From the IMG/VR virus record IMGVR_UViG_3300025711_000110, positions 1 through 37,532 of that record: 37,532 nt of DNA. One strand, written 5' to 3'. A model generated the notes under the pieces. It made no database searches. It worked only from the letters and a program-made list of their open reading frames with translations, and had not been told where the DNA came from. The stretch is from a virus. This document shows, in pieces, positions 1-35,220 of the stretch; position 1 is the stretch's first letter; the number at the start of each line of letters is the position of its first letter. A program made the position numbers and the translations under genes.

Positions 1-41
1 CCCATCCTAATGCTGAAACTGGTGAGGAGACCCAATCATGA
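1..41 (+). CDS. C-terminal end of an upstream gene (partial)
   Basis: An open frame enters from the left edge and ends in TGA at 39-41, overlapping the zapA start codon as ATGA. The visible C-terminus is HPNAETGEETQS. A 4-base stop/start overlap is typical of translationally coupled genes. In Acinetobacter-type genomes a small ZapB-like (TIGR02449) gene often precedes zapA, so that is the likely identity, but only 12 codons are visible and this is inference. Confidence 0.45.
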   Translation, partial: HPNAETGEETQS

Positions 42-322
42 GTGAACAAGTCATGGTAGAGCTTAGGCTGATTGAGCAGACCTTTAGACTCGCGACTACT
101 TTAGATAAAAAAGATGAACTTGAACGCGCAGCAGAACTTCTCAATGAAAAATTTAATGAGATGCGTCGTAGTGCTCCACGTGTTGAGCACAATAAACTGG
201 TCATTATGGTTGCTCTACAACTGACTCAAGAAGTACTGAGCCTTAATAAGTCTTTGCAAGAATACACTCACTGTGAACGTTTACTGCAAACGATCTTGGA
301 TGATGTTGAACAAATTGTTTAA
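38..322 (+). CDS. zapA: cell division protein ZapA
   Basis: This 94-residue protein matches ZapA in length and pattern: an N-terminal beta-rich head (VMVELRLIEQTFRLAT) followed by a long alpha-helical coiled-coil tail containing the family-typical VEHNKLVIMVALQLTQEVL segment. ZapA is a cytoplasmic tetramer that bundles FtsZ protofilaments at the Z-ring; that role is family knowledge. The ATG is preceded by a strong Shine-Dalgarno, GAGGAGA at 24-30. The gene sits immediately upstream of the 6S RNA gene, the conserved zapA-ssrS order in gammaproteobacteria, so this is intact host backbone at the edge of the prophage. Confidence 0.93.
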   Translation: MSEQVMVELRLIEQTFRLATTLDKKDELERAAELLNEKFNEMRRSAPRVEHNKLVIMVALQLTQEVLSLNKSLQEYTHCERLLQTILDDVEQIV

Positions 323-843: not shown

Positions 844-2196
844 ATGATTCAAAGATATAAGCTTACAAAAACATTTATCGACACCATTCCCCTCGAAGAA
901 ACGGGAAGTAAATTTTATCGTGACTCAGTTACTATTGGTTTTGGCTTAATTGCCACAAAGTCGAAAACCTATTTTGTTGAAACGAGAATGCCTGATGGCC
1001 GCAACAAAAGAAAGTCTATTGGTAAACATGGTGTATATACTCTTGAGCAAGCACGTACAGAAGCTAAAAAAATATTGTTAATGATGCACCAAGGCATTGA
1101 TCCAGTTGCTCAAAAAAGACAATTAAAGAGTGACTTTAAATCTGAAAAAGAAGCAAATGAATTAATTCCAACGCTAGAACAAGCTTATGAAGTCTACAAA
1201 AGTAAAAAGAAGCTAAGCGCTAATACGATCAATGCTTATGATCGATGTGCCAATGATTATTTTAAAGATTGGAAAAATATCAAAATTACTGAAATTACTC
1301 AGAAAATGACTTTAAACAAGCATATGGATTTATCTGTGCGGAGTTTAGCGCAGGCAAATCTTGCGATGAAGTTTCTATCTGCTGTCTACAACTTCAACGC
1401 CTCAATTCTTTATAACGATAATGATGAAAAAATTATCACAGAAAAAAGCCCTGTTGGAGTTATTTACAAAGAGAAGAAATGGAACAAGATAAAACGCCGT
1501 AAAGGATATATTCGAGCAGACCAAATACACGACTGGTCACTTGCCGTGTGTACGACTTGGTGGGCAGGCAATCAAAATTTAAATCATCGTGCCTACACAA
1601 ATCAGGACTTTTTACTTCTATTGATCCTAACCGGATTCCGAAGAGAAGAAGGTGAAACACTAGAATGGGCAAATGTTGACTTAAAATATGGAACTATAAA
1701 AATTCAGGATCCGAAAAATCATGAAGACCTTCTCCTACCGATGGGAGAAATGCTTTGGTATATCTTGGCAGAACGTAAAAAACTTGCTGGCAATAATAAG
1801 TACGTTTTTGCTGGTGATACGCCTGATTCACATATCGTTGATAAGCGTGAGGCACGTCATACGATTACTGAGGCAACTGGTATTGAATTTACATTTCATG
1901 ATTTACGGAGAACCTTCGGAACTATCGCAAATAGTCTAGCGATTGGTAGTTACACAATTAAAAAACTCATCAATCACATGGTTGGTGATGATGACAACGA
2001 TGTAACAGATGGATATGTTCAAGTGACTTTTGATGATCTTCGTAAAGCTATGAATATGATTGAAAATGTTGTGTTATCTGACGTTTCAAAATCTTTGATC
2101 AAAAACCGCATTTACTTTGAACAAAAATCAATAAGGAATATGCAAGAAAAGTGGATTGAGCATAACAATACTATTATAAGCAGATATCATGAATAA
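844..2196 (+). CDS. int: prophage tyrosine integrase (P4 type)
   Basis: This 450-residue site-specific recombinase would integrate and excise the prophage. The N-terminal 90 residues have the DUF4102-like arm-binding fold of P4-type integrases (FYRDSVTIGFGLIATKSKTYFVE, about 24-46, then TLEQAR...GIDP). A core-binding domain follows at about 105-210. The catalytic domain carries the expected R266 (TGFRREEGETLEW), H352 and R355 (FHDLRRTFGT), H378 (LINH) and the nucleophile Y391 (GYVQV), all present and in order. The gene reads away from the host 6S RNA, with the attachment site presumably between them. No good Shine-Dalgarno precedes the ATG, so translation may be weak. The roughly 50 residues after the catalytic tyrosine are a lineage-specific tail. 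Confidence 0.93.
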   Translation: MIQRYKLTKTFIDTIPLEETGSKFYRDSVTIGFGLIATKSKTYFVETRMPDGRNKRKSIGKHGVYTLEQARTEAKKILLMMHQGIDPVAQKRQLKSDFKSEKEANELIPTLEQAYEVYKSKKKLSANTINAYDRCANDYFKDWKNIKITEITQKMTLNKHMDLSVRSLAQANLAMKFLSAVYNFNASILYNDNDEKIITEKSPVGVIYKEKKWNKIKRRKGYIRADQIHDWSLAVCTTWWAGNQNLNHRAYTNQDFLLLLILTGFRREEGETLEWANVDLKYGTIKIQDPKNHEDLLLPMGEMLWYILAERKKLAGNNKYVFAGDTPDSHIVDKREARHTITEATGIEFTFHDLRRTFGTIANSLAIGSYTIKKLINHMVGDDDNDVTDGYVQVTFDDLRKAMNMIENVVLSDVSKSLIKNRIYFEQKSIRNMQEKWIEHNNTIISRYHE

Positions 2197-19490: not shown

Positions 19491-22268
19491 TTATTTACCA
19501 AAATTACGGCGATAACCCTTTAAGCTGTCCGCAACTGCTTTACTGTTTTTCTTTAACCAGCGATCTGCTCCTTTGGTATCAAGAAAACCAAGGTTAATAA
19601 CTGGCCCACTTCCCCCACCTTCAGCTGCAGCAGCTGCTCCAAAACTTGCACCACTACGCATGGCTTTACCCATTTCACGAATGGTATTTGCATGTTGTGA
19701 AGGTAAAACCATCTCATCTTCATGTAGCTGAGTAACTGGATTAACACCGGATGGAATGTCGTAACCGCCTCGAGCAGATTTGATCTTGCCAGCTAAGCCT
19801 GCTACTAAACCGAATGCAGCTGCACCGGCACCAACGGCGAGAATTGGGCCGATGTATGGAATGGCAACCATGGCTTTAAATGCTCCGGCCATTGCTTCCC
19901 ATGCTGACATCATGATGCCCTTGATAGCTTCAGCCGCTTTTAACCCCAATCGAGCCAAACCACCCGCAGCAGTAACACTGGTACGAGTTGCTTCACCTGC
20001 AATTGTTGCCCCTGTTTGTGCAGCTTGGCCAGAAGCTTCAGCCGCTGTTTCAGCACCAACAAAACCGAGTTTTCGAGCTAACTTAATCGCTTGGATTCTC
20101 AGCCAGCCTTGGAGCTCCTTAGTTGCCGATTGCAATGCAAATGCACCCATATCAGCTAATACCGCTTTAGTTGCATTACTCCATGTAAGTGTGCCGTTCA
20201 TTAAAGACTGAATGCCCTGATCCCAAAGGTTAGACAGTCGAGAAGTAAACCCACCGAACTTAGCCTCAAAGTCTTTCATTTCTGCATCACTGATTAAGCC
20301 CATAGACTTAGTGTCAGCAACTTTCTGATCTGTTTCTAAATCAGAAATGTTGTTTGTGATTTGGTTTTGATTACCTTGTTTGCCTGTAATTCCGGTTTGC
20401 TCGTTTTCAAGAGCCAAACGCTCTAAAAGACCTTGTCGCTTAATTTCACGTAACTGATCTTCGAGCTGCTTCTCTAACTGAACTTTGCGAATATTAGAAA
20501 TTTTCTTGGCATCATATTCGGCTTGGATTCGTGCCGCTTCTATTTCATATAGACGTTGTGCTTGCTGTTGATAATTGTCTATCTGTTCTTCACGAGCTTT
20601 TTTGTAGTCCTCAAACTCTTTTAAACGAATAGCAATAATCTTGTCTGAAGCATCCTTTTCGGCTTTGATTTTAGCAGCGGCTTTTTCATCGGCAGTCATC
20701 TTAGATTTTTCAATCTCATCTAATGCCTTCTGAAGATCTAAAGCGACTTTCTTTTCTTCAGATGCATATTTATATCTAATATCAGCAAGTGCTTTAGCTG
20801 CCTGCTCAGCTTGTTTTACAGCATCGGATTTACCCTGCTTTGCCTTGTCTGATTTTGCACCCTCTGGATTGAGTGCTTTATTTTGGCCGATACCAGAAGT
20901 AACCCCTTTACTTCCACTTCTACTACCAAGTTGAGCATTTTGGATATCAATTTTGGCTTGGGATAAGCGATCAAATGAGGGTGTTCCACTAAAAATATTA
21001 GATGCTGAATTAATTGCAGCTTTGGTGGTACCAGCAATATCAACCACAGTATCTTTCGTTTCAGTCCAGATAGCTTTTACACCACCTGCTAGAGCCTTAC
21101 CTTTAGCCAGGATCCCATCCGCATTTACAAAGTTTACGGCAGTGCTTCCAATAGTCCTTAGGTTACTCATCACACCAGACATTAAACGCACAAGATTTTG
21201 CAAACCTGCTCCAAGCCCAACAATAACAACTGCCACGCCCTTGGCAACTGAGCCTAATGTCTGAACAACTCCAGTAAATGCTCCCCCTTTTGTGGTGCCA
21301 TTCATAAAATGACTAATAACACCGCTTAAAGCTGGCATTACAGCTTGAGCCAATTGATTTTTTAAACCGGTGTACTGCATTTGAAGTACTTCAGTTTGAG
21401 CCTTTAATTCAATGGATTTTTGAATTGCCTCTTCACCAGTAATAATCCCTGCTTCTTCCATAGCAGACTGGTATTCTTTCCAAAGCTTACCGCCATCTTG
21501 CAAAATCGGAATTAAGCCTGTGAGATCTGAGCCCATACTTTCAAGATAGAAAGACATTTGCTGTTGGTTGACTCCAGCTTCTTCCAACTTATCGACATAA
21601 GTTTGTAAAGCTTCAACTCCATCCATCTTGGACATTTCTTCGGCAAGCTTTTTCGCCCCAGCCGCACCACCTTCAGTTTTAACGGCGATTTGCTCAAAAA
21701 AGTCCATTGCCCCACCAGAGCCTACAGAGGCAAATTCCCCAAGCTTTTCATTAAAGTCTTTCATCATGTCTGAGACTTTGTCTTGAGAAAAACCCAAAGT
21801 TTGGGCTGCACCAGATAACCCTTGAAAAGATTGCAATGAGGTATTCGCTAAGGCGGAGAATTTGGCGAGCTCAACATTGTTGTTAGCTACTTCAATGGCT
21901 AGTGTAGCCATACCTGCTGCTGCAACTGCAGCACCTCCAACTGCCAATCCAGCAACCGCACCTGCAGCAACAAGCGCGCCGCCGCGTAGAGCTCCCAACT
22001 TGGAAGTAATACCTTCAAATGCCGATCCTATTTTTGAACCGCCAAATGCTTCACTAATTTGGTTGCTAAACCCTTCTGAAATAGACTTAGATACATCATC
22101 AAACTGTCGCTTGACACTGGAAAGATCAAACTTAAATTTCACACCTTTGGTGGAATTTTCTATTTGCTTAGCAGAATCAGAAACAATTTTTTCAGCATCA
22201 TCCATGCCTTTTTTAAGTTCGGATGTTTTTGCACCTACATGAACTTCAACGCGGTTATTATTTGCCAT
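19491..22268 (-). CDS. tail tape measure protein
   Basis: At 925 residues this is the longest protein of the tail cluster and sets tail length; at about 1.5 angstrom per residue it predicts a tail near 140 nm, a siphovirus value. It has an N-terminal helical region (RVEVHVGAKTSELKKGMDDA), an alanine/glycine hydrophobic segment (about 92-125), a long charged coiled coil (about 480-610, KAEKDASDKIIAIRLKEFED) and a second hydrophobic block (about 800-840, AIPYIGPILAVGAGAAAFGL). The C-terminus ends KGYRRNFGK. It is placed after the tail chaperones, as usual, apart from one cargo gene in between. AAGAGG precedes the ATG. Confidence 0.93.
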   Translation of the reverse strand: MANNNRVEVHVGAKTSELKKGMDDAEKIVSDSAKQIENSTKGVKFKFDLSSVKRQFDDVSKSISEGFSNQISEAFGGSKIGSAFEGITSKLGALRGGALVAAGAVAGLAVGGAAVAAAGMATLAIEVANNNVELAKFSALANTSLQSFQGLSGAAQTLGFSQDKVSDMMKDFNEKLGEFASVGSGGAMDFFEQIAVKTEGGAAGAKKLAEEMSKMDGVEALQTYVDKLEEAGVNQQQMSFYLESMGSDLTGLIPILQDGGKLWKEYQSAMEEAGIITGEEAIQKSIELKAQTEVLQMQYTGLKNQLAQAVMPALSGVISHFMNGTTKGGAFTGVVQTLGSVAKGVAVVIVGLGAGLQNLVRLMSGVMSNLRTIGSTAVNFVNADGILAKGKALAGGVKAIWTETKDTVVDIAGTTKAAINSASNIFSGTPSFDRLSQAKIDIQNAQLGSRSGSKGVTSGIGQNKALNPEGAKSDKAKQGKSDAVKQAEQAAKALADIRYKYASEEKKVALDLQKALDEIEKSKMTADEKAAAKIKAEKDASDKIIAIRLKEFEDYKKAREEQIDNYQQQAQRLYEIEAARIQAEYDAKKISNIRKVQLEKQLEDQLREIKRQGLLERLALENEQTGITGKQGNQNQITNNISDLETDQKVADTKSMGLISDAEMKDFEAKFGGFTSRLSNLWDQGIQSLMNGTLTWSNATKAVLADMGAFALQSATKELQGWLRIQAIKLARKLGFVGAETAAEASGQAAQTGATIAGEATRTSVTAAGGLARLGLKAAEAIKGIMMSAWEAMAGAFKAMVAIPYIGPILAVGAGAAAFGLVAGLAGKIKSARGGYDIPSGVNPVTQLHEDEMVLPSQHANTIREMGKAMRSGASFGAAAAAEGGGSGPVINLGFLDTKGADRWLKKNSKAVADSLKGYRRNFGK

Positions 22269-26341: not shown

Positions 26342-27322
26342 TTATTCAACATCATAGTAGCGGAGAGAATCGACACGTTTTAAATAGACACCTTCATACA
26401 TATAGTGCCCCGGTGTACGCATCACATAATTGATAGGTTGAGCTGCCAAGAATTCCAGCTCATTACAACGGAAAGTAATGCAGCTTGGATCACGGCGGTA
26501 AATAATGCTACGGTCCGTACCACCTTCACCTTTTCCCTCAAGCATACTTTCAGAAGTGAATGTGAGAGTTTTACCTTGCATTGCAAAGGTGTTCTTTTCC
26601 TTAATATATTCAAGGAAGGTTTTCCCTGCTGAATCTGGAACGATACGACTAGCGAGATTGGTGAACTTATTCTCAGGCATTACAAAAGTATCTGGCTGAA
26701 TACTGCTATCAAACTTAGAGGCATTTGAAGCACCTTTAATTGCCTTATTGATATCGGCAAGTACGGATTCAACTGTAGCTGTTGCATAATCAACCGTAGA
26801 GGAAATAACCTCTACACCAGTCTGATTATAGAAACCTAGTAACCCGGTTTCAGGCTCTCCAAACCATGCCACATCACTCATATGGTTTTCATAAGCCAGA
26901 CGAGCAGCTTCAACTTTATCGGTCGCTAACTGAATACCAGCTTTCAAGGCTGCCGCCGCATCAAAGATACTGATTTCGTAACCAATAACACCAGGCTGTA
27001 CGGTGAGTTTTACCTCATCGTAAACAACTTCTGCTAGTGGCACATCGTTGCCAAGACCAGAGAAACGTTTACCTCGGCCTACACCTTTCTTACGTTGCAA
27101 GACACTTGCTGAACCCACAACTGCTCCTTCCAATCCTTCAATTGGCAAATACTTCGCATAAGCTTGAGCTTCGGCAAGTTGCGGAGTCATTTCATCAATT
27201 GATTCAAGCTTCAACAATAACTTGGCAAAGTTATCTAAATTAAATGCATCTCCTACGGCGATCTGCACACCATGTGCAACTGCCGTTAAGCGAATTTTCA
27301 TTTGTTCTAATTGTTTTGACAT
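26342..27322 (-). CDS. major capsid protein, DUF2184 family
   Basis: This 326-residue protein fits the DUF2184 branch of HK97-fold capsid proteins: IDEMTPQLAEAQAYAKYLPI near the N-terminus, a central VQPGVIGYEISIFDAAAALK spine-type helix region, the VMPENKFTNLASRIVPDSAG segment, and a C-terminal AQPINYVMRTPGHYMYEGVY strand followed by VDSLRYYDVE. It follows the cement-like gene by two bases. There is no long N-terminal delta domain, consistent with a separate or fused scaffold in the gene upstream. It should be among the most abundant virion proteins. Confidence 0.9.
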   Translation of the reverse strand: MSKQLEQMKIRLTAVAHGVQIAVGDAFNLDNFAKLLLKLESIDEMTPQLAEAQAYAKYLPIEGLEGAVVGSASVLQRKKGVGRGKRFSGLGNDVPLAEVVYDEVKLTVQPGVIGYEISIFDAAAALKAGIQLATDKVEAARLAYENHMSDVAWFGEPETGLLGFYNQTGVEVISSTVDYATATVESVLADINKAIKGASNASKFDSSIQPDTFVMPENKFTNLASRIVPDSAGKTFLEYIKEKNTFAMQGKTLTFTSESMLEGKGEGGTDRSIIYRRDPSCITFRCNELEFLAAQPINYVMRTPGHYMYEGVYLKRVDSLRYYDVE

Positions 27323-27324
27323 TT

Positions 27325-27795
27325 TTACGCTCCACGTAATCGAAGGATTGCTAAACCATCAGGACCAGTGATGGTTTCCCAAGAGGCATTAGGTAGTTCA
27401 GTAGAATCTAATGCAGCAGATGAAAGAGATCCTAACGGCGCTTGTGCTGTTGGGTTTGAGGTACGGACATACACCTTTGCTTTTATATCAATCACAGGAG
27501 CTGTAGGTTTTACCCAAATAGACCCAATCTGCATGATGGGTGCACAATCTTTAGCCTGATAAGCTTCTTTGCCTAAGGCGTTTTTTCCTGATTTACCAAC
27601 ATGCTGAAAAACTACTACACCAAACTTTGTGTTAGTTGCACCAGTTACCGCAGAGACGGTTTTACCATCTGCAGACTGTACCGCTACTTCCCCATCACTT
27701 AAGGCAGTATTGCCCGCGACTGCTAAAGATAAGATTTCTTCGGGCATGTGCAAACGTGCACGCATACCCGGAATAGCTTGAGGTGTTAATGACAT
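27325..27795 (-). CDS. head decoration / structural cement protein
   Basis: This 156-residue beta-rich protein is located between the protease/scaffold and the capsid gene, where lambda-like and DUF2190-type decoration proteins occur. It begins MSLTPQAIPGMRARLHMPEE and continues VAGNTALSDGEVAVQSADGK, VFQHVGKSGKN and IMQIGSIWVKPTAPV, patterns of cement proteins that stabilise the expanded head. The assignment is from position and composition. Confidence 0.72.
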   Translation of the reverse strand: MSLTPQAIPGMRARLHMPEEILSLAVAGNTALSDGEVAVQSADGKTVSAVTGATNTKFGVVVFQHVGKSGKNALGKEAYQAKDCAPIMQIGSIWVKPTAPVIDIKAKVYVRTSNPTAQAPLGSLSSAALDSTELPNASWETITGPDGLAILRLRGA

Positions 27796-27813: not shown

Positions 27814-29013
27814 TTAGAAGCTTTGTTTCCAAGCTTCTTTTTTGTGGTTGGTTTTCTTCTCTTCACCGCCAGCAGGCTTACCATCACCTGCATTAATGTT
27901 TTGTTGGTGGTTAAGTGCATCGGCCACTGGGTTAGATGGGTGTGTACCTTTTACAGCGGACAAAGCGCGGAATACTGTGTCGATCTGATCAGGCTTTGCA
28001 TCGCCCACAGCAACACTACCCAGCACAGCCCCAACCAAGGCATCACCCGCTTTAGCTGCAATTACATCGCGCTTGATTTGCTCACATGTGCAGCCTTCAG
28101 TTTTAACTGTTGGTACCAATGCTTTAGCATCGGCAATCACTGCAGCACGTTCGGTAGCAGCTTGTTCAAGTTTTTCAGGCGTCATCTGGTTCTTTTCCAG
28201 ATCACCGACTTTTTGCTCAAGCGTGGTTTTATCGGTATGCAATTGATCTACGACTGCCTGAACGGCGTTAAGTTCATCACCGATCGAAAATTGCTTATCC
28301 CCGACTTTAAGCTTTGCCGCTTTTAAATTTTCGAGCTGCTCTTGCTGGATCTTCAATGCATCCGCAAAAGGCTTGTTATCGCCAATGTCAAAACGCATAC
28401 CGTTTACAATTACTTCCATTGTTTTCCCCTCTGGTGGAGTTTGCTTTTGGTCACCGATGCGGCAATCACCACCACAGCGACCGTATTTAACGAGTGCTAC
28501 GTGATTGCCAATAAAATTGATAAATTTTGCTTGGTACACCGTGCCATCTGGCGCCGTGCCCTGCTCTAAAACTAATGTGGCTCCATAACCCAGCGACATT
28601 TCTAATCGCTCGTTGTTCTGGATTAAATCAATGCTGTCCTTATCTTTAATGAGCAAATCGCCCAATAAATATTCGCCTTCTTGGCGGACGTTCTCACAAT
28701 AGCCAATGTGATAGTCCTTCCAGTTGGCTGCATTAATTTCATTCTTGGGTGGGTGATAATCTGTAGCATCAGCACCATCCCAACTTTTAATCGCTGCCGG
28801 CTTAAATAGTTCTTCTGCAGGTGTGTAGACGTTAATCGTCTGATCTGCTGAAAAGCCTTCTAAGTTTGGGAACTCATACGCATAGTACTGACGTACCTGA
28901 GGTGCTTTACCCAAGCGAACGTTTACGCATTTCAAATAACCTTCGGGTGTATATGAACGTGTGGATTCACTCGGAGCAAAGTCACCTACCTTGAAGCGGT
29001 AAATGTTTTTCAT
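27814..29013 (-). CDS. prohead protease-scaffold fusion, DUF2213 family
   Basis: This 399-residue protein combines two functions. Residues 1-190 are the DUF2213 protease domain, with likely catalytic His87 (TDYHPPKNEINAANW) and Ser140 (RLEMSLGYGATLV) and the family motif NHVALVKYGRCGGDC (170-184). Residues about 205-399 are a charged coiled-coil scaffold (KLKVGDKQFS, VDQLHTDKTTLEQKVGDLEK) that ends with a lysine-rich tail (EEKKTNHKKEAWKQSF). The domain order and position before cement and capsid genes agree with a self-cleaving scaffold. An internal start at 28420 (MEVIVNGMRFDIGD, preceded by GAGGGGAAA) could make a separate scaffold, a common trick in such genes. Confidence 0.85.
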   Translation of the reverse strand: MKNIYRFKVGDFAPSESTRSYTPEGYLKCVNVRLGKAPQVRQYYAYEFPNLEGFSADQTINVYTPAEELFKPAAIKSWDGADATDYHPPKNEINAANWKDYHIGYCENVRQEGEYLLGDLLIKDKDSIDLIQNNERLEMSLGYGATLVLEQGTAPDGTVYQAKFINFIGNHVALVKYGRCGGDCRIGDQKQTPPEGKTMEVIVNGMRFDIGDNKPFADALKIQQEQLENLKAAKLKVGDKQFSIGDELNAVQAVVDQLHTDKTTLEQKVGDLEKNQMTPEKLEQAATERAAVIADAKALVPTVKTEGCTCEQIKRDVIAAKAGDALVGAVLGSVAVGDAKPDQIDTVFRALSAVKGTHPSNPVADALNHQQNINAGDGKPAGGEEKKTNHKKEAWKQSF

Positions 29014-29030
29014 AAATTGCGCTCATTAAA

Positions 29031-29052
29031 AAGCCCACCAGAAGGTGGGCTT
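29031..29052 (-). terminator. terminator after the 283-aa moron
   Basis: On the minus strand AAGCCCACC-TTCT-GGTGGGCTT is followed by TTTAAT. It ends the moron unit and precedes the protease gene. Confidence 0.8.
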
Positions 29053-29096
29053 GGAATAACAATTTTTACAATTTCAAAAATTATGAAATTTATTCT

Positions 29097-29948
29097 TCAT
29101 TCATAATCTAAAGTAAATCTATGACCTGTTTCCTTAATTTTATAGACAAACCTTTGATTCACCTCATCCATCTCTAAGCCAATTGTGGCTATTTCAGTTA
29201 TTCTTTTTTGGGGGTCAGCTTCTAAAATTTGATTTATATTCATAGATATTTCATTAAATTTATTTTCGAAATTAAATAATACTTGTTGAACATTCATAAT
29301 CGCTTGCAATGGCGAACCATTAGAAACAACCCCTAAACCCGGTGGATAATATTCAGTGCCATCATGAACTCTTACTGTAACGTTACAATTTTTACTTCTT
29401 AGAATTTGATACTCTTCTTCTGTTAAAACCTTACCACCCGTTTCGCATTTATATTTAACAAGTAGATCTGGCCAATTTTCATGAATAGTTTCAATAATAT
29501 CTAAATCGCACCAGTCTCCATGCGAAAAAAATCCAATAATGTGCGCTTTATTATCTGAAAAATGAATGAATAATAAATCTGAAGTTCGAGATACAAATCC
29601 ATCACTTTCTAAATTTTGTCCTAAATGTAAATGCTGAATTCTCCAATGAGATAGCATGTCATCATCATAATCTAGCCTTTTAAGATTTCTACTTTGATAT
29701 TTATTTAGAGAATTTCCCGTTTCTATATCTGAAACAATTTTTCTATATGCAGATAAATGCTCTTGAGGAATAAAAAAATTTGGAGGTTCAATTATCTCTC
29801 TAGGACGTGCATCTATTATTCTATATTTAAAACGATGATATAAGTGCATCGGACTATGACTTCCATTCTTATAATTCCCAAATTCATTTATTAACTTTTG
29901 ATGACAATAGTCCTCATAGTCTTCTACTAACTCATTTTTTATTTCCAC
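29097..29948 (-). CDS. moron of unknown function inside the head operon
   Basis: This 283-residue, soluble and AT-rich protein separates the MuF gene from the protease gene, which are normally adjacent. It starts at GTG (29948) behind AAGGGG. Residues about 100-165 have a compact motif series: HWRIQHLHLGQNLESDGFVS, RTSDLLFIHFSDNK, IIGFFSHGDWCDLDIIETIH, ENWPDLL. The H-x-H and HGDW residues could form a metal or catalytic centre; I have seen related strings in uncharacterised genomic-island proteins but know no function. A coiled segment (FNFENKFNEISMNINQI) follows. With a terminator after it and its different base composition, it is a late acquisition. Confidence 0.62.
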   Translation of the reverse strand: MEIKNELVEDYEDYCHQKLINEFGNYKNGSHSPMHLYHRFKYRIIDARPREIIEPPNFFIPQEHLSAYRKIVSDIETGNSLNKYQSRNLKRLDYDDDMLSHWRIQHLHLGQNLESDGFVSRTSDLLFIHFSDNKAHIIGFFSHGDWCDLDIIETIHENWPDLLVKYKCETGGKVLTEEEYQILRSKNCNVTVRVHDGTEYYPPGLGVVSNGSPLQAIMNVQQVLFNFENKFNEISMNINQILEADPQKRITEIATIGLEMDEVNQRFVYKIKETGHRFTLDYE

Positions 29949-30019
29949 TTTAACCCCTTAATTATTTGAAATGATCAAGTCTTAATTCATTATCTTTAAA
30001 ATCTCATAAAGTAATTAAA

Positions 30020-30832
30020 TTAATCAATCAAAATATCCTCATAGTTAGGCAATGCGGTGCAACGGCAGCGAATAGGCTGACCGGGATGTCCACCATCTGG
30101 TGGTAAATCCCATCTGAATGTCTTGCCCTGCTTATGTTGATGATCTGGCCGTACACGCTCATCTTTAGCCGTTTGCCATGTGTATGTCTCAACACCCATT
30201 GAAAGTTGTCTGGCTTGGTTAATTTGGCCGTTAATCTTACCCATCTGATCACTAGCAATAAGTCGTGCACGATAATCAGTAGATAAACCTAATTGCTTAA
30301 TAGCTTTAGCCAACTCTTCATTGGTTTGCCCAGTCTGCAAAGCATTTGTGATTAAAACTTCAAGCTTATCGGCGTATTGCTGAGGAATAGACTTAATCAA
30401 ACTGACATTTGCCGTGATGTTTAGATCTACCTCGTCCTGAATATCAGCAGCTCGATAGAAAGGCGTTAGATCCACACCAATAATTGCTTTGGTGTGCTCT
30501 GCAATTTGCTTGTCCACTTCCTTTTGGGTATCAGTCACAACTTTAGTGGCCAATGGTCGGGAAATCTCAATAACATACTTTGTGAGCTTTTCCCTAAACG
30601 CCGTCATCATGTCAGAGAACCAAGCATCACCAATATTCTGGCCTACTGTGGGAATAACAAGATCCTTGGTTTGATCCTGACAGTATTTTGAGATTGCCAG
30701 CAATTGCCGTGTGTAATAAAGCTCTACACGGCGATTTACGTGCACAGCTCTCGGCTTAGAAGCTTTACGCCCTTTTTTCCGTTTCTTAGCTTGCAGGAGG
30801 TGGGGTTTCAGTATTTGAATTATCGTCGTCAT
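30020..30832 (-). CDS. MuF / SPP1 gp7-like minor head protein
   Basis: This 270-residue head morphogenesis protein would attach to the portal and be packaged with DNA. The C-terminal third carries the family signature: RLIASDQMGKINGQINQARQ, then YTWQTAKDERVRPDHQHKQG, and PPDGGHPGQPIRCRCTALP (about 245-263). The N-terminus is basic (KKRKKGRKASKPRAVHVNRR). It overlaps the portal gene by 47 bases; GGTGAA just ahead of the ATG at 30832 supports that start. No polymorphic toxin domain is appended. Confidence 0.9.
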   Translation of the reverse strand: MTTIIQILKPHLLQAKKRKKGRKASKPRAVHVNRRVELYYTRQLLAISKYCQDQTKDLVIPTVGQNIGDAWFSDMMTAFREKLTKYVIEISRPLATKVVTDTQKEVDKQIAEHTKAIIGVDLTPFYRAADIQDEVDLNITANVSLIKSIPQQYADKLEVLITNALQTGQTNEELAKAIKQLGLSTDYRARLIASDQMGKINGQINQARQLSMGVETYTWQTAKDERVRPDHQHKQGKTFRWDLPPDGGHPGQPIRCRCTALPNYEDILID

Positions 30833-34162: not shown

Positions 34163-34803
34163 CATGTAATAACGCAATTTCCACAGCATTTAGATATATC
34201 TAAATCAGAAACAAACGGCGGGTTTTTCGCAACTTCAATAAGTCGTTTAACACTTTCACTTGGGCCCCAGCGCTTCACAACCCCGATAAACTCTTCCACA
34301 TCGTGACCAGCTAAATAATGTTTAGGTAGGCCAGTATGATCGCTATAAATAATCTCGCCGTCTCCATCTCGCTCTACACCAATATGATAAAGTTCATGTT
34401 CAAGCAAAGCACAGAACTCGCTATCATTGGCTTTATCGCAAAAGGTAGCGTCGATAGTGATTAAGTAAGTCGGCACAAATCCGAACCAATCCCGCATTTG
34501 TTGTTCTTGTCGAGCTTTCTTCCATCCGCCTTGTTGAAACATAACCTTTTCACATTGGCCTAACACCATACGTTTAGCTCGCGTATATGCAGAAGATGCC
34601 CATGCAAATGCTAGAAACTCTTCATTATCATGAAGCAGCTCAGCGATATGATCATGGTCCGGGTTATGTAGTGGCCCACCTAGCGTAAGAAAATTAGCGA
34701 TAACCCACTTCTTTAAATCTGGTGCCGGTATTAAACGGATTGCTTCCTCTTCTTCAGCCTGATCAATAAAGTCTGGCTGCGGGAATGGTCTGATCTGTTC
34801 CAT
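34162..34803 (-). CDS. putative phage metallopeptidase
   Basis: This 213-residue protein has an HExxH zinc motif at 136-140 (LLEHELYHIG), with an acidic residue following in GVERDG. The helix leading to it, YLITIDATFCDKANDSEFCA, has the placement seen in the putative phage metallopeptidase family usually located near terminase genes. A third ligand may come from the H in GLPKHYLAGHDVEEF. The C-terminus has clustered cysteines (ISKCCGNCVIT). Substrate unknown. It overlaps the nuclease-like gene by 41 bases, which suggests coupling. Confidence 0.78.
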   Translation of the reverse strand: MEQIRPFPQPDFIDQAEEEEAIRLIPAPDLKKWVIANFLTLGGPLHNPDHDHIAELLHDNEEFLAFAWASSAYTRAKRMVLGQCEKVMFQQGGWKKARQEQQMRDWFGFVPTYLITIDATFCDKANDSEFCALLEHELYHIGVERDGDGEIIYSDHTGLPKHYLAGHDVEEFIGVVKRWGPSESVKRLIEVAKNPPFVSDLDISKCCGNCVIT

Positions 34804-35206
34804 CTTCTAAACTCTCTAACTTTGCTTTAAGCCAATTAATTACATGACCTGATAAAACTGAATCTGGATGAAATCGCTCAATCTTGTATCCCAGTACTTC
34901 AACCTGATCATACCGATCAATGCTCCAAGCCTTATTTGATAATTTCCCACTACGACCACCAGACCAAGGACCACCCGCTATTTCAATTAGCAAGCGCAAT
35001 TTCACAATGTGAAAGTCAAAACGCCAGTTTTTTGTATGGATGGGTTGAAATTTGCTTTCAAAACCAATAGCCAGATCTGTTAATTCTTCTTGTAGTGTTG
35101 CTTCAGCTTCTAAATATTTTTGAGTAGCCTTAGGCAAAGGTCTGGTTTTAGGTTTAACCTTAGGCTCCTTTTTTCCTGTGAGCTTAAAATATTTATCAGG
35201 ATCCAT
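34763..35206 (-). CDS. putative PD-(D/E)xK-type endonuclease
   Basis: This 147-residue protein (ATG at 35206 behind GGA; a TTG three codons earlier is possible) resembles very-short-patch or DUF559-like nucleases: NWRFDFHIVKLRLLIEIAGG (D64, E75) followed by SIDRYDQVEVLGYKIERFHP and a final helix, HVINWLKAKLESL. The third catalytic position, normally lysine or glutamine, is alanine in IEIAGG, so activity is uncertain. Such genes occur beside terminase genes and may help cos cleavage or DNA processing (inference). Confidence 0.7.
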   Translation of the reverse strand: MDPDKYFKLTGKKEPKVKPKTRPLPKATQKYLEAEATLQEELTDLAIGFESKFQPIHTKNWRFDFHIVKLRLLIEIAGGPWSGGRSGKLSNKAWSIDRYDQVEVLGYKIERFHPDSVLSGHVINWLKAKLESLEDGTDQTIPAARLY

Positions 35207-35220
35207 AAATTCCAACCAAT

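Follow-up and report, generated by a model that had tools for sequence, protein, structure and literature searches.

A probable prophage-carried PD-T4-7 defence gene with a predicted RelE-type fold between the MuF and protease genes of an Acinetobacter-related siphophage

The gene at positions 29097-29948 of an IMG/VR virus contig, analysed here over its whole length of 37,532 bases (the window), is probably a prophage-carried defence gene of the PD-T4-7 family, whose product would be a self-controlled toxin of RelE fold acting by abortive infection of competing phages. In passages of Vassallo 2022 (PMC9519451), PD-T4-7 is a single-gene anti-phage family, obtained by functional selection against T4 in E. 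coli and grouped with toxin-antitoxin-like systems that act by abortive infection. A preliminary description of this DNA had presented the gene as an unknown, enzyme-like moron with a possible defence role. Its family turns out to be known already, and the notion of an enzyme-like defence factor carried as a moron is supported by the match to a family with a validated E. coli member, by the predicted RelE-type fold and by other defence-type genes in the same slot of related phages. The features discussed below are collected in Table 1.

Table 1. Positions of the PD-T4-7 family gene, its parts and its surroundings in the window
Feature	Position	Strand	Basis or remark
PD-T4-7 family gene	29097..29948	(-)	283 aa, GTG start; ORF and PADLOC
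Predicted RelE/YafQ/HigB-type fold, residues 48-163 (H106, H108, R121, H143)	29460..29807	(-)	AlphaFold, VIA-align, conservation
Sheath-like segment, residues about 175-227	29268..29426	(-)	hhalign against T4 gp18, Mu L and P2 FI; weak fold matches
Shine-Dalgarno AAGGGG	29954..29959	(-)	direct reading of the sequence
13-nt leader block TTTATGAGATTTT	29998..30010	(-)	conserved only with PD-T4-7 cargo
Intrinsic terminator of the slot	29032..29051	(-)	8-bp stem, T-run at 29031-29024
MuF/SPP1 gp7-type head morphogenesis gene, left flank	30020..30832	(-)	PF04233, TIGR01641, phrog_324
DUF2213 head maturation protease, right flank	27814..29013	(-)	PF09979, phrog_530
Integrase	844..2196	(+)	phrog_1, E=1.1e-36
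Tape measure protein	19491..22268	(-)	phrog_2854, E=1.5e-183

The nearest named phages of the window are Acinetobacter phages. The integrase indicates that the phage is temperate, while the tape measure protein, a J-like tail protein and the lack of any match to the contractile sheath family PF17482 (0 in the record) point to a siphovirus-type tail. As described earlier, the neighbours are a head gene pair, assigned with Pfam, NCBIfam and PHROGs as a MuF-type gene (PF04233, E=4.9e-23; TIGR01641, 7e-22) and a DUF2213 protease gene (PF09979, 5.9e-52; phrog_530, 9e-99), and both are part of the operon of portal, terminase, capsid and tail genes. The AT-rich composition and the GTG start were also correctly noted, with a GC content of 30.3% compared to 43.3% for the MuF gene and 45.4% for the protease gene, as was the strong Shine-Dalgarno sequence, located 5 nt upstream of the GTG. 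Elsewhere in the window, the major capsid gene and the preceding gene (26342-27322 and 27325-27795) exist among relatives in two sharply distinct versions (about 96% or about 53% identity for the capsid protein), which are exchanged independently of the flanking genes. A gene at 34763-35215, which lies upstream of the terminase region, shows unusual variability among relatives (44-80% identity, its neighbours mostly 84-95%).

By profile and architecture, the product of the gene is a member of PD-T4-7. It matches the PADLOC model PDLC04066 (PD-T4-7) at E=7.3e-31, with residues 18-251 aligned on 20-275 of 337, and a second PD-T4-7 model, PDLC04065, at 1.8e-9. A DNA-level PADLOC search of the whole record recovered PD-T4-7 at 4.6e-32, and 0 of 14 control genomes matched. 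The PADLOC match rules out reading the gene as an orphan. Searches of Pfam and NCBIfam with the 283-aa protein gave no match and PHROGs gave one chance-level match only (E=0.24); hence no match to a virion or head-assembly family was seen in these three collections, homology to a known head assembly factor having been named as evidence against a defence role. The likeness to PD-T4-7 comprises the profile match, the single-gene organization, a RelE-like core with a sheath-like region and carriage by mobile elements, whereas the host phage group and the insertion slot differ from those of E. coli PD-T4-7. Defence against T4 is known for the E. coli member, from which the 283-aa protein is distant. 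The same passages of PMC9519451 mention elsewhere a RelE-like protein fused to a phage-sheath-like domain, a description that we infer, by elimination, to concern PD-T4-7. The RelE-type fold predicted here is an independent fit to that description, and both a RelE-like region (by fold search) and a sheath-like region (by hhalign, weakly) are present in the 283-aa protein.

Relatives with 73-99% identity are carried by 15 IMG/VR loci, all 15 in the same MuF-protease slot as far as the contigs extend (one of them, L007, starts at the PD-T4-7 gene and leaves the right flank alone visible). Plasmid relatives were found in 15 records. The best is that of Vibrio anguillarum p292 (55%), and some lie near or next to ABC-3C, AbiEii, zeta-toxin or RES genes; on p292 itself (L177) the relative is surrounded by IS66 elements and a group II intron. 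With an alignment as the query, homologues were detected in 34 viral loci and in 41 chromosomal or MAG loci, assigned by record title to Gammaproteobacteria, Bacteroidetes, Bacillota, Spirochaetes, Chloroflexota and others, whereas a single-protein query of the same genome contigs returned none. A tblastn search of a named-phage collection with the 283-aa protein gave no match, hence no carrier of a relative was found among the named phages of that collection. At another locus (L010:6927-7810), the protease gene stops at about 159 residues and directly adjoins genes of the prophage's far end, as in a rearranged or deleted prophage.

The AlphaFold model of the protein, computed from an alignment of 51 sequences, has a mean pLDDT of 94.5. 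When this model was compared to known structures with VIA-align, 47 of the 50 rows were RelE, HigB, YoeB, YafQ or ParE toxins (Z 3.5-6.1), and nearly all rows cover model residues 48-163. The other three rows correspond to Cami1 (two rows), which we take to contain a RelE domain, and to Txp40. All Z values, with a maximum of 6.1, are under the tool's caution level of 8, and it is the uniformity of the RelE-superfamily rows, not any single modest Z, that argues for a RelE fold. The best PDB match in Foldseek was the Vibrio cholerae YafQ (9lew_B, E=0.036, probability 0.99), no match reaching E<=0.001 with the AlphaFold model. A search of a viral structure library with the model returned nothing coherent, sequence searches against solved structures, with the single protein or with the profile, gave no convincing match, and hhalign did not connect the PD-T4-7 family profile to the single E. 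coli YafQ sequence (probability 0.2). Of the matches in these sequence searches, 7mcd is a designed repeat protein and a YoeB profile match (E=0.17) falls outside the RelE-like region.

The four motifs quoted in the preliminary description are all present in the protein and hold conserved residues: H106xH108, R121, H143 and W159-P160. In an alignment of 16 sequences, consisting of the 283-aa protein, four phage and 11 plasmid proteins and collected, except for the close-relative scan, without motif patterns on these residues, G78, S86, D96, H106, H108, L109, R121, H143, P160 and R184 are invariant. In the alignment of 51 sequences, G78, D96, H106, H108, H143 and W159 are invariant. The conservation of H106/H108 and N158-P160 in this larger set is partly by construction, because the scan patterns contained them, while the invariance of G78, D96 and H143 was not imposed by the patterns, and H106/H108 and P160 are still invariant in the smaller set gathered without them. 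The 'HGDW' residues proposed as conserved hold in part: H143 is invariant and W146 is a tryptophan in 40 of 51 sequences, but D145 is not conserved.

In the model, strand 2 carries H106 and H108, while R121 immediately precedes strand 3 and H143 immediately follows strand 4. The same order is found in RelE with K52/K54 (K-x-K), R61 and R81, which we take to be catalytic-type residues, the spacing of the presumed catalytic residues being 13 and 22 in the 283-aa protein compared to 7 and 20 in RelE. In the VIA-align row for 4mmg_B, model residues 49..148 pair with YafQ 3..92, which places H143 near YafQ H87. In passages of PMC6529426, H87 is the proposed general acid of YafQ, and H50, H63, D67, H87 and F91 are required for its toxicity in E. 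coli. The conserved HxH, Arg and His of the model appear to sit about where YafQ and RelE keep their catalytic residues. The predicted fold of residues 48-163 and the order of the catalytic-type residues are thus alike to those of the RelE-superfamily toxins YafQ, RelE, HigB and YoeB; however, these toxins have about 90 aa, whereas the PD-T4-7 protein has 283 aa, with added N- and C-terminal parts and no adjacent antitoxin. The remote-homology and structure searches that had been suggested as a check yielded the PD-T4-7 profile match and a predicted RelE-type ribonuclease fold under the His residues noted at the time and the Arg of the quoted motifs. The product looks like a RelE-type ribonuclease toxin with a built-in control part.

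No second ORF of at least 45 aa is present in the slots that carry PD-T4-7, and these slots hold no adjacent antitoxin gene. The neighbours were compared for 46 homologue loci, one of which (L227) is unresolved, and among the 45 resolved distant loci a neighbour gene family is common to just one pair, so that no neighbour commonly recurs. Hence the gene is not one half of a canonical type II toxin-antitoxin pair.

In the compared sequences of this siphophage group, the gap between the MuF and protease genes acts as an exchange slot, some of whose cargo is defence-like. In the window, the slot is the gap between the MuF and DUF2213 genes at 29014-30019. The slot loci were the best 80 of 174 and the best 80 of 169 by similarity to the window, one set per flank, and the two sets share contigs, so that the counts given here are not population frequencies. 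Both flanks were resolved in 78 of the 80 loci of each set. The gene had been said to interrupt a conserved gene pair, a view that does not stand, since the gap is empty in 0 of 78 MuF-anchored and 0 of 78 protease-anchored loci (best 80 each). In the same best-80 sets, the slot shows 22 and 34 gene arrangements, respectively, and PD-T4-7 occupies 12 of 78 MuF-anchored and 11 of 78 protease-anchored slots, the two sets overlapping. A pair of small genes is the most frequent content (26 of 78 MuF-anchored loci among the best 80). The 82 distinct slot sequences of the best-80 sets hold 42 ORF families, 24 of them of at least 140 aa. The scan with Pfam and PADLOC covered 26 representatives, i.e., the 23 families of at least 140 aa other than PD-T4-7 and three smaller ones. 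Recognizable cargo includes SIR2_2/PDC-S25, DUF6602 (NucC-like/PD-DExK in PADLOC), SLATT_5, 8xMP, DUF1643, ORF6N and a sub-threshold HEPN; nothing else in the scanned cargo passed the curated cut-offs of Pfam, so that most of the cargo is candidate defence at most. Among named phages, vB_AbaSI_5 carries a HEPN-annotated gene in the slot, 5W and MD-2021a carry small hypothetical genes and the Psychrobacter phage pOW20-A carries three small genes. The HEPN-annotated protein of vB_AbaSI_5 (L174:2303-3676) has about 457 aa; a protein of similar size is encoded at L138:2531-3904, and at L139 the slot gene of the L138 type is broken into two ORFs. The slots of L106 and L112 hold an extra-large cargo of about 3.1-3.3 kb with five ORFs, including an ORF6N protein.

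Slot sequences diverge directly after the MuF stop codon and reconverge at the terminator before the protease gene. The identity of the cargo is out of step with that of its neighbours: compared to the window, L001 has 99% identity in the cargo and 54% in the capsid, while L006 and L012 have 74% and 73% in the cargo and 96% in the capsid. In addition, the MuF identity is 75% at L011 and 96-98% at the other eleven compared loci. This would fit an exchange by recombination in the flanks. The arrangement is reminiscent of the P2/P4 prophage defence hotspots as presented in Rousset 2022 and in passages of Vassallo 2022 (PMC9519451), in which a fixed slot surrounded by core phage genes holds interchangeable defence genes, with the difference that the slot studied here belongs to Acinetobacter and Psychrobacter siphophages and is flanked by MuF and the DUF2213 protease. 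The titles and abstracts found in literature searches, and passages of PMC12421847 and PMC10884400, contain no description of the slot, and Yi 2025 (PMC11723918), on Acinetobacter defence hotspots, may already describe it.

An intrinsic terminator stands just before the protease gene in 71 of the 82 distinct slots of the best-80 sets, whereas shuffled sequences give 0.3 on average. As the cargo of these slots is unrelated, the terminator belongs to the slot and not to the PD-T4-7 gene. Hence the terminator next to the gene is real but, contrary to the earlier proposal, is not the gene's own. Similarly, the gene was described as having insulated ends, which is borne out on the 3′ side by the terminator but not on the 5′ side, where no sigma-70-like promoter passed a scan of the minus strand of the 71-nt upstream gap. 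The conserved 13-nt block, situated some 50 nt ahead of the GTG, was detected in 47 of 257 loci, a count that includes copies of the window and duplicates of the same contigs, and its listed sites are the left edge of the slot beside the PD-T4-7 gene. This block is compatible with the gene having its own promoter but is no proof of it. With the slot terminator downstream, transcription of the gene need not drive expression of the head genes.

In the C-terminal part of the protein, residues about 175-227 show a weak but reproducible and specific resemblance to the C-terminal domain of sheath proteins from contractile tails. In hhalign, the score was 20.6 against the C-terminal region of T4 gp18 and 17.7 against Mu L (0/100 column shuffles reaching the score in each case), 13.0 against P2 FI (8/100) and 15.6 against pooled sheaths (1/100), compared to 13.3 (16/100) and 13.5 (25/100) for the MuF and portal controls. 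The three sheath families align to the same stretch in the same register. However, the similarity is short (about 50 residues) and weak, no full-length sheath family matches the protein (0 Pfam families) and the host phage has no detected sheath gene. Modelled separately, residues 165-283 reach a pLDDT of 88.9, and their best fold matches, a Mediator subunit and TlpA, do not exceed Z 4.2. Weak fold matches do include phage, T6SS and PVC/AFP sheath proteins, at Z 2.2-3.2 and ranked under these unrelated entries, hence the sheath assignment relies on the hhalign scores together with the published description. Combining these elements, it can be speculated that the segment is a decoy, mimicking the end by which sheath subunits of a contractile tail interlock. 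When a myophage infects, its sheath proteins, or those that assemble the sheath, would bind to the decoy and thereby set the RelE-fold nuclease free. A sheath-less siphophage could carry the gene safely in its late operon, and the gap between the MuF and protease genes would be a place where Acinetobacter siphophages generally exchange defence genes, with a terminator that belongs to the slot. Taken as a whole, including the mimicry, this scenario is unlikely. The T4 selection and a host phage without a detected sheath are in line with it, and it is weakened by the low similarity and by the two records with a PD-T4-7 homologue, those of L207 and L212, that have a PF17482 sheath gene (2 of 16 virus records with a PD-T4-7 gene or homologue).

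In the favoured reading, that of a self-controlled PD-T4-7 toxin, the RelE-fold core would, by analogy with YafQ and RelE, cut mRNA on the ribosome by means of H106/H108, R121 and H143, located on strand 2, at the start of strand 3 and at the end of strand 4, respectively. The N-terminal helices and the C-terminal domain, including the sheath-like segment, would keep the toxin inactive without a separate antitoxin until a product of the infecting phage disturbs these parts and releases it. The resulting collapse of translation would leave few phages to emerge from the infected cell, protecting the lysogenic population and the prophage. In the lysogen, the slot terminator would keep the cargo transcript out of the head genes, while late transcription would read through. 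The mRNA cleavage, the self-control, the trigger and the expression in the lysogen are what we infer for this gene.

The gene could also serve defence without being an mRNA interferase, if the RelE-like fold binds, or cuts other RNA or DNA, and protection follows another route. This is somewhat unlikely: the low VIA-align Z values and a sequence profile that does not reach YafQ leave room for it, as does the fact that ParE toxins, which share the RelE fold, target gyrase and not mRNA, whereas the HxH, Arg and His are conserved about where YafQ and RelE hold their catalytic residues. Its place in a late operon, among the head genes of a prophage, would also suit a superinfection or lysogeny immunity factor directed against close relatives of the same phage only. 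Such a narrow role is quite improbable given the presence of the family on plasmids and on chromosomes of many phyla, and given the activity of the E. coli member on T4 (passages of PMC9519451).

The position between two head genes, on the same strand and without a large gap, is moreover what would be seen for an accessory virion or head-assembly protein. Conservation in the head module, expected of a head assembly factor, was not found, as PD-T4-7 occupies only the 12 of 78 MuF-anchored slots (best 80) mentioned above and unrelated genes fill the others, which makes it dispensable for the phage group; the results with Pfam, NCBIfam and PHROGs and the relatives on plasmids argue in the same direction, and a structural role is very improbable. 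A RelE-fold toxin borne by a mobile element further recalls addiction, in which the toxin would serve to retain the prophage and have no anti-phage role. Because neither a second ORF nor a commonly recurring neighbour was found, there is no antitoxin whose loss would kill, and this explanation is very improbable as well. Anti-phage defence by a self-controlled RelE-fold toxin hence remains the probable function of the gene.

In this reading, a little-studied, experimentally discovered defence gene gains a concrete biological setting and a candidate active site. If the sheath-like part is a sensor, it would explain how a single-gene toxin recognizes its target phage. The unnamed cargo of the slot, in turn, provides ready candidates for defence genes in a clinically important genus.
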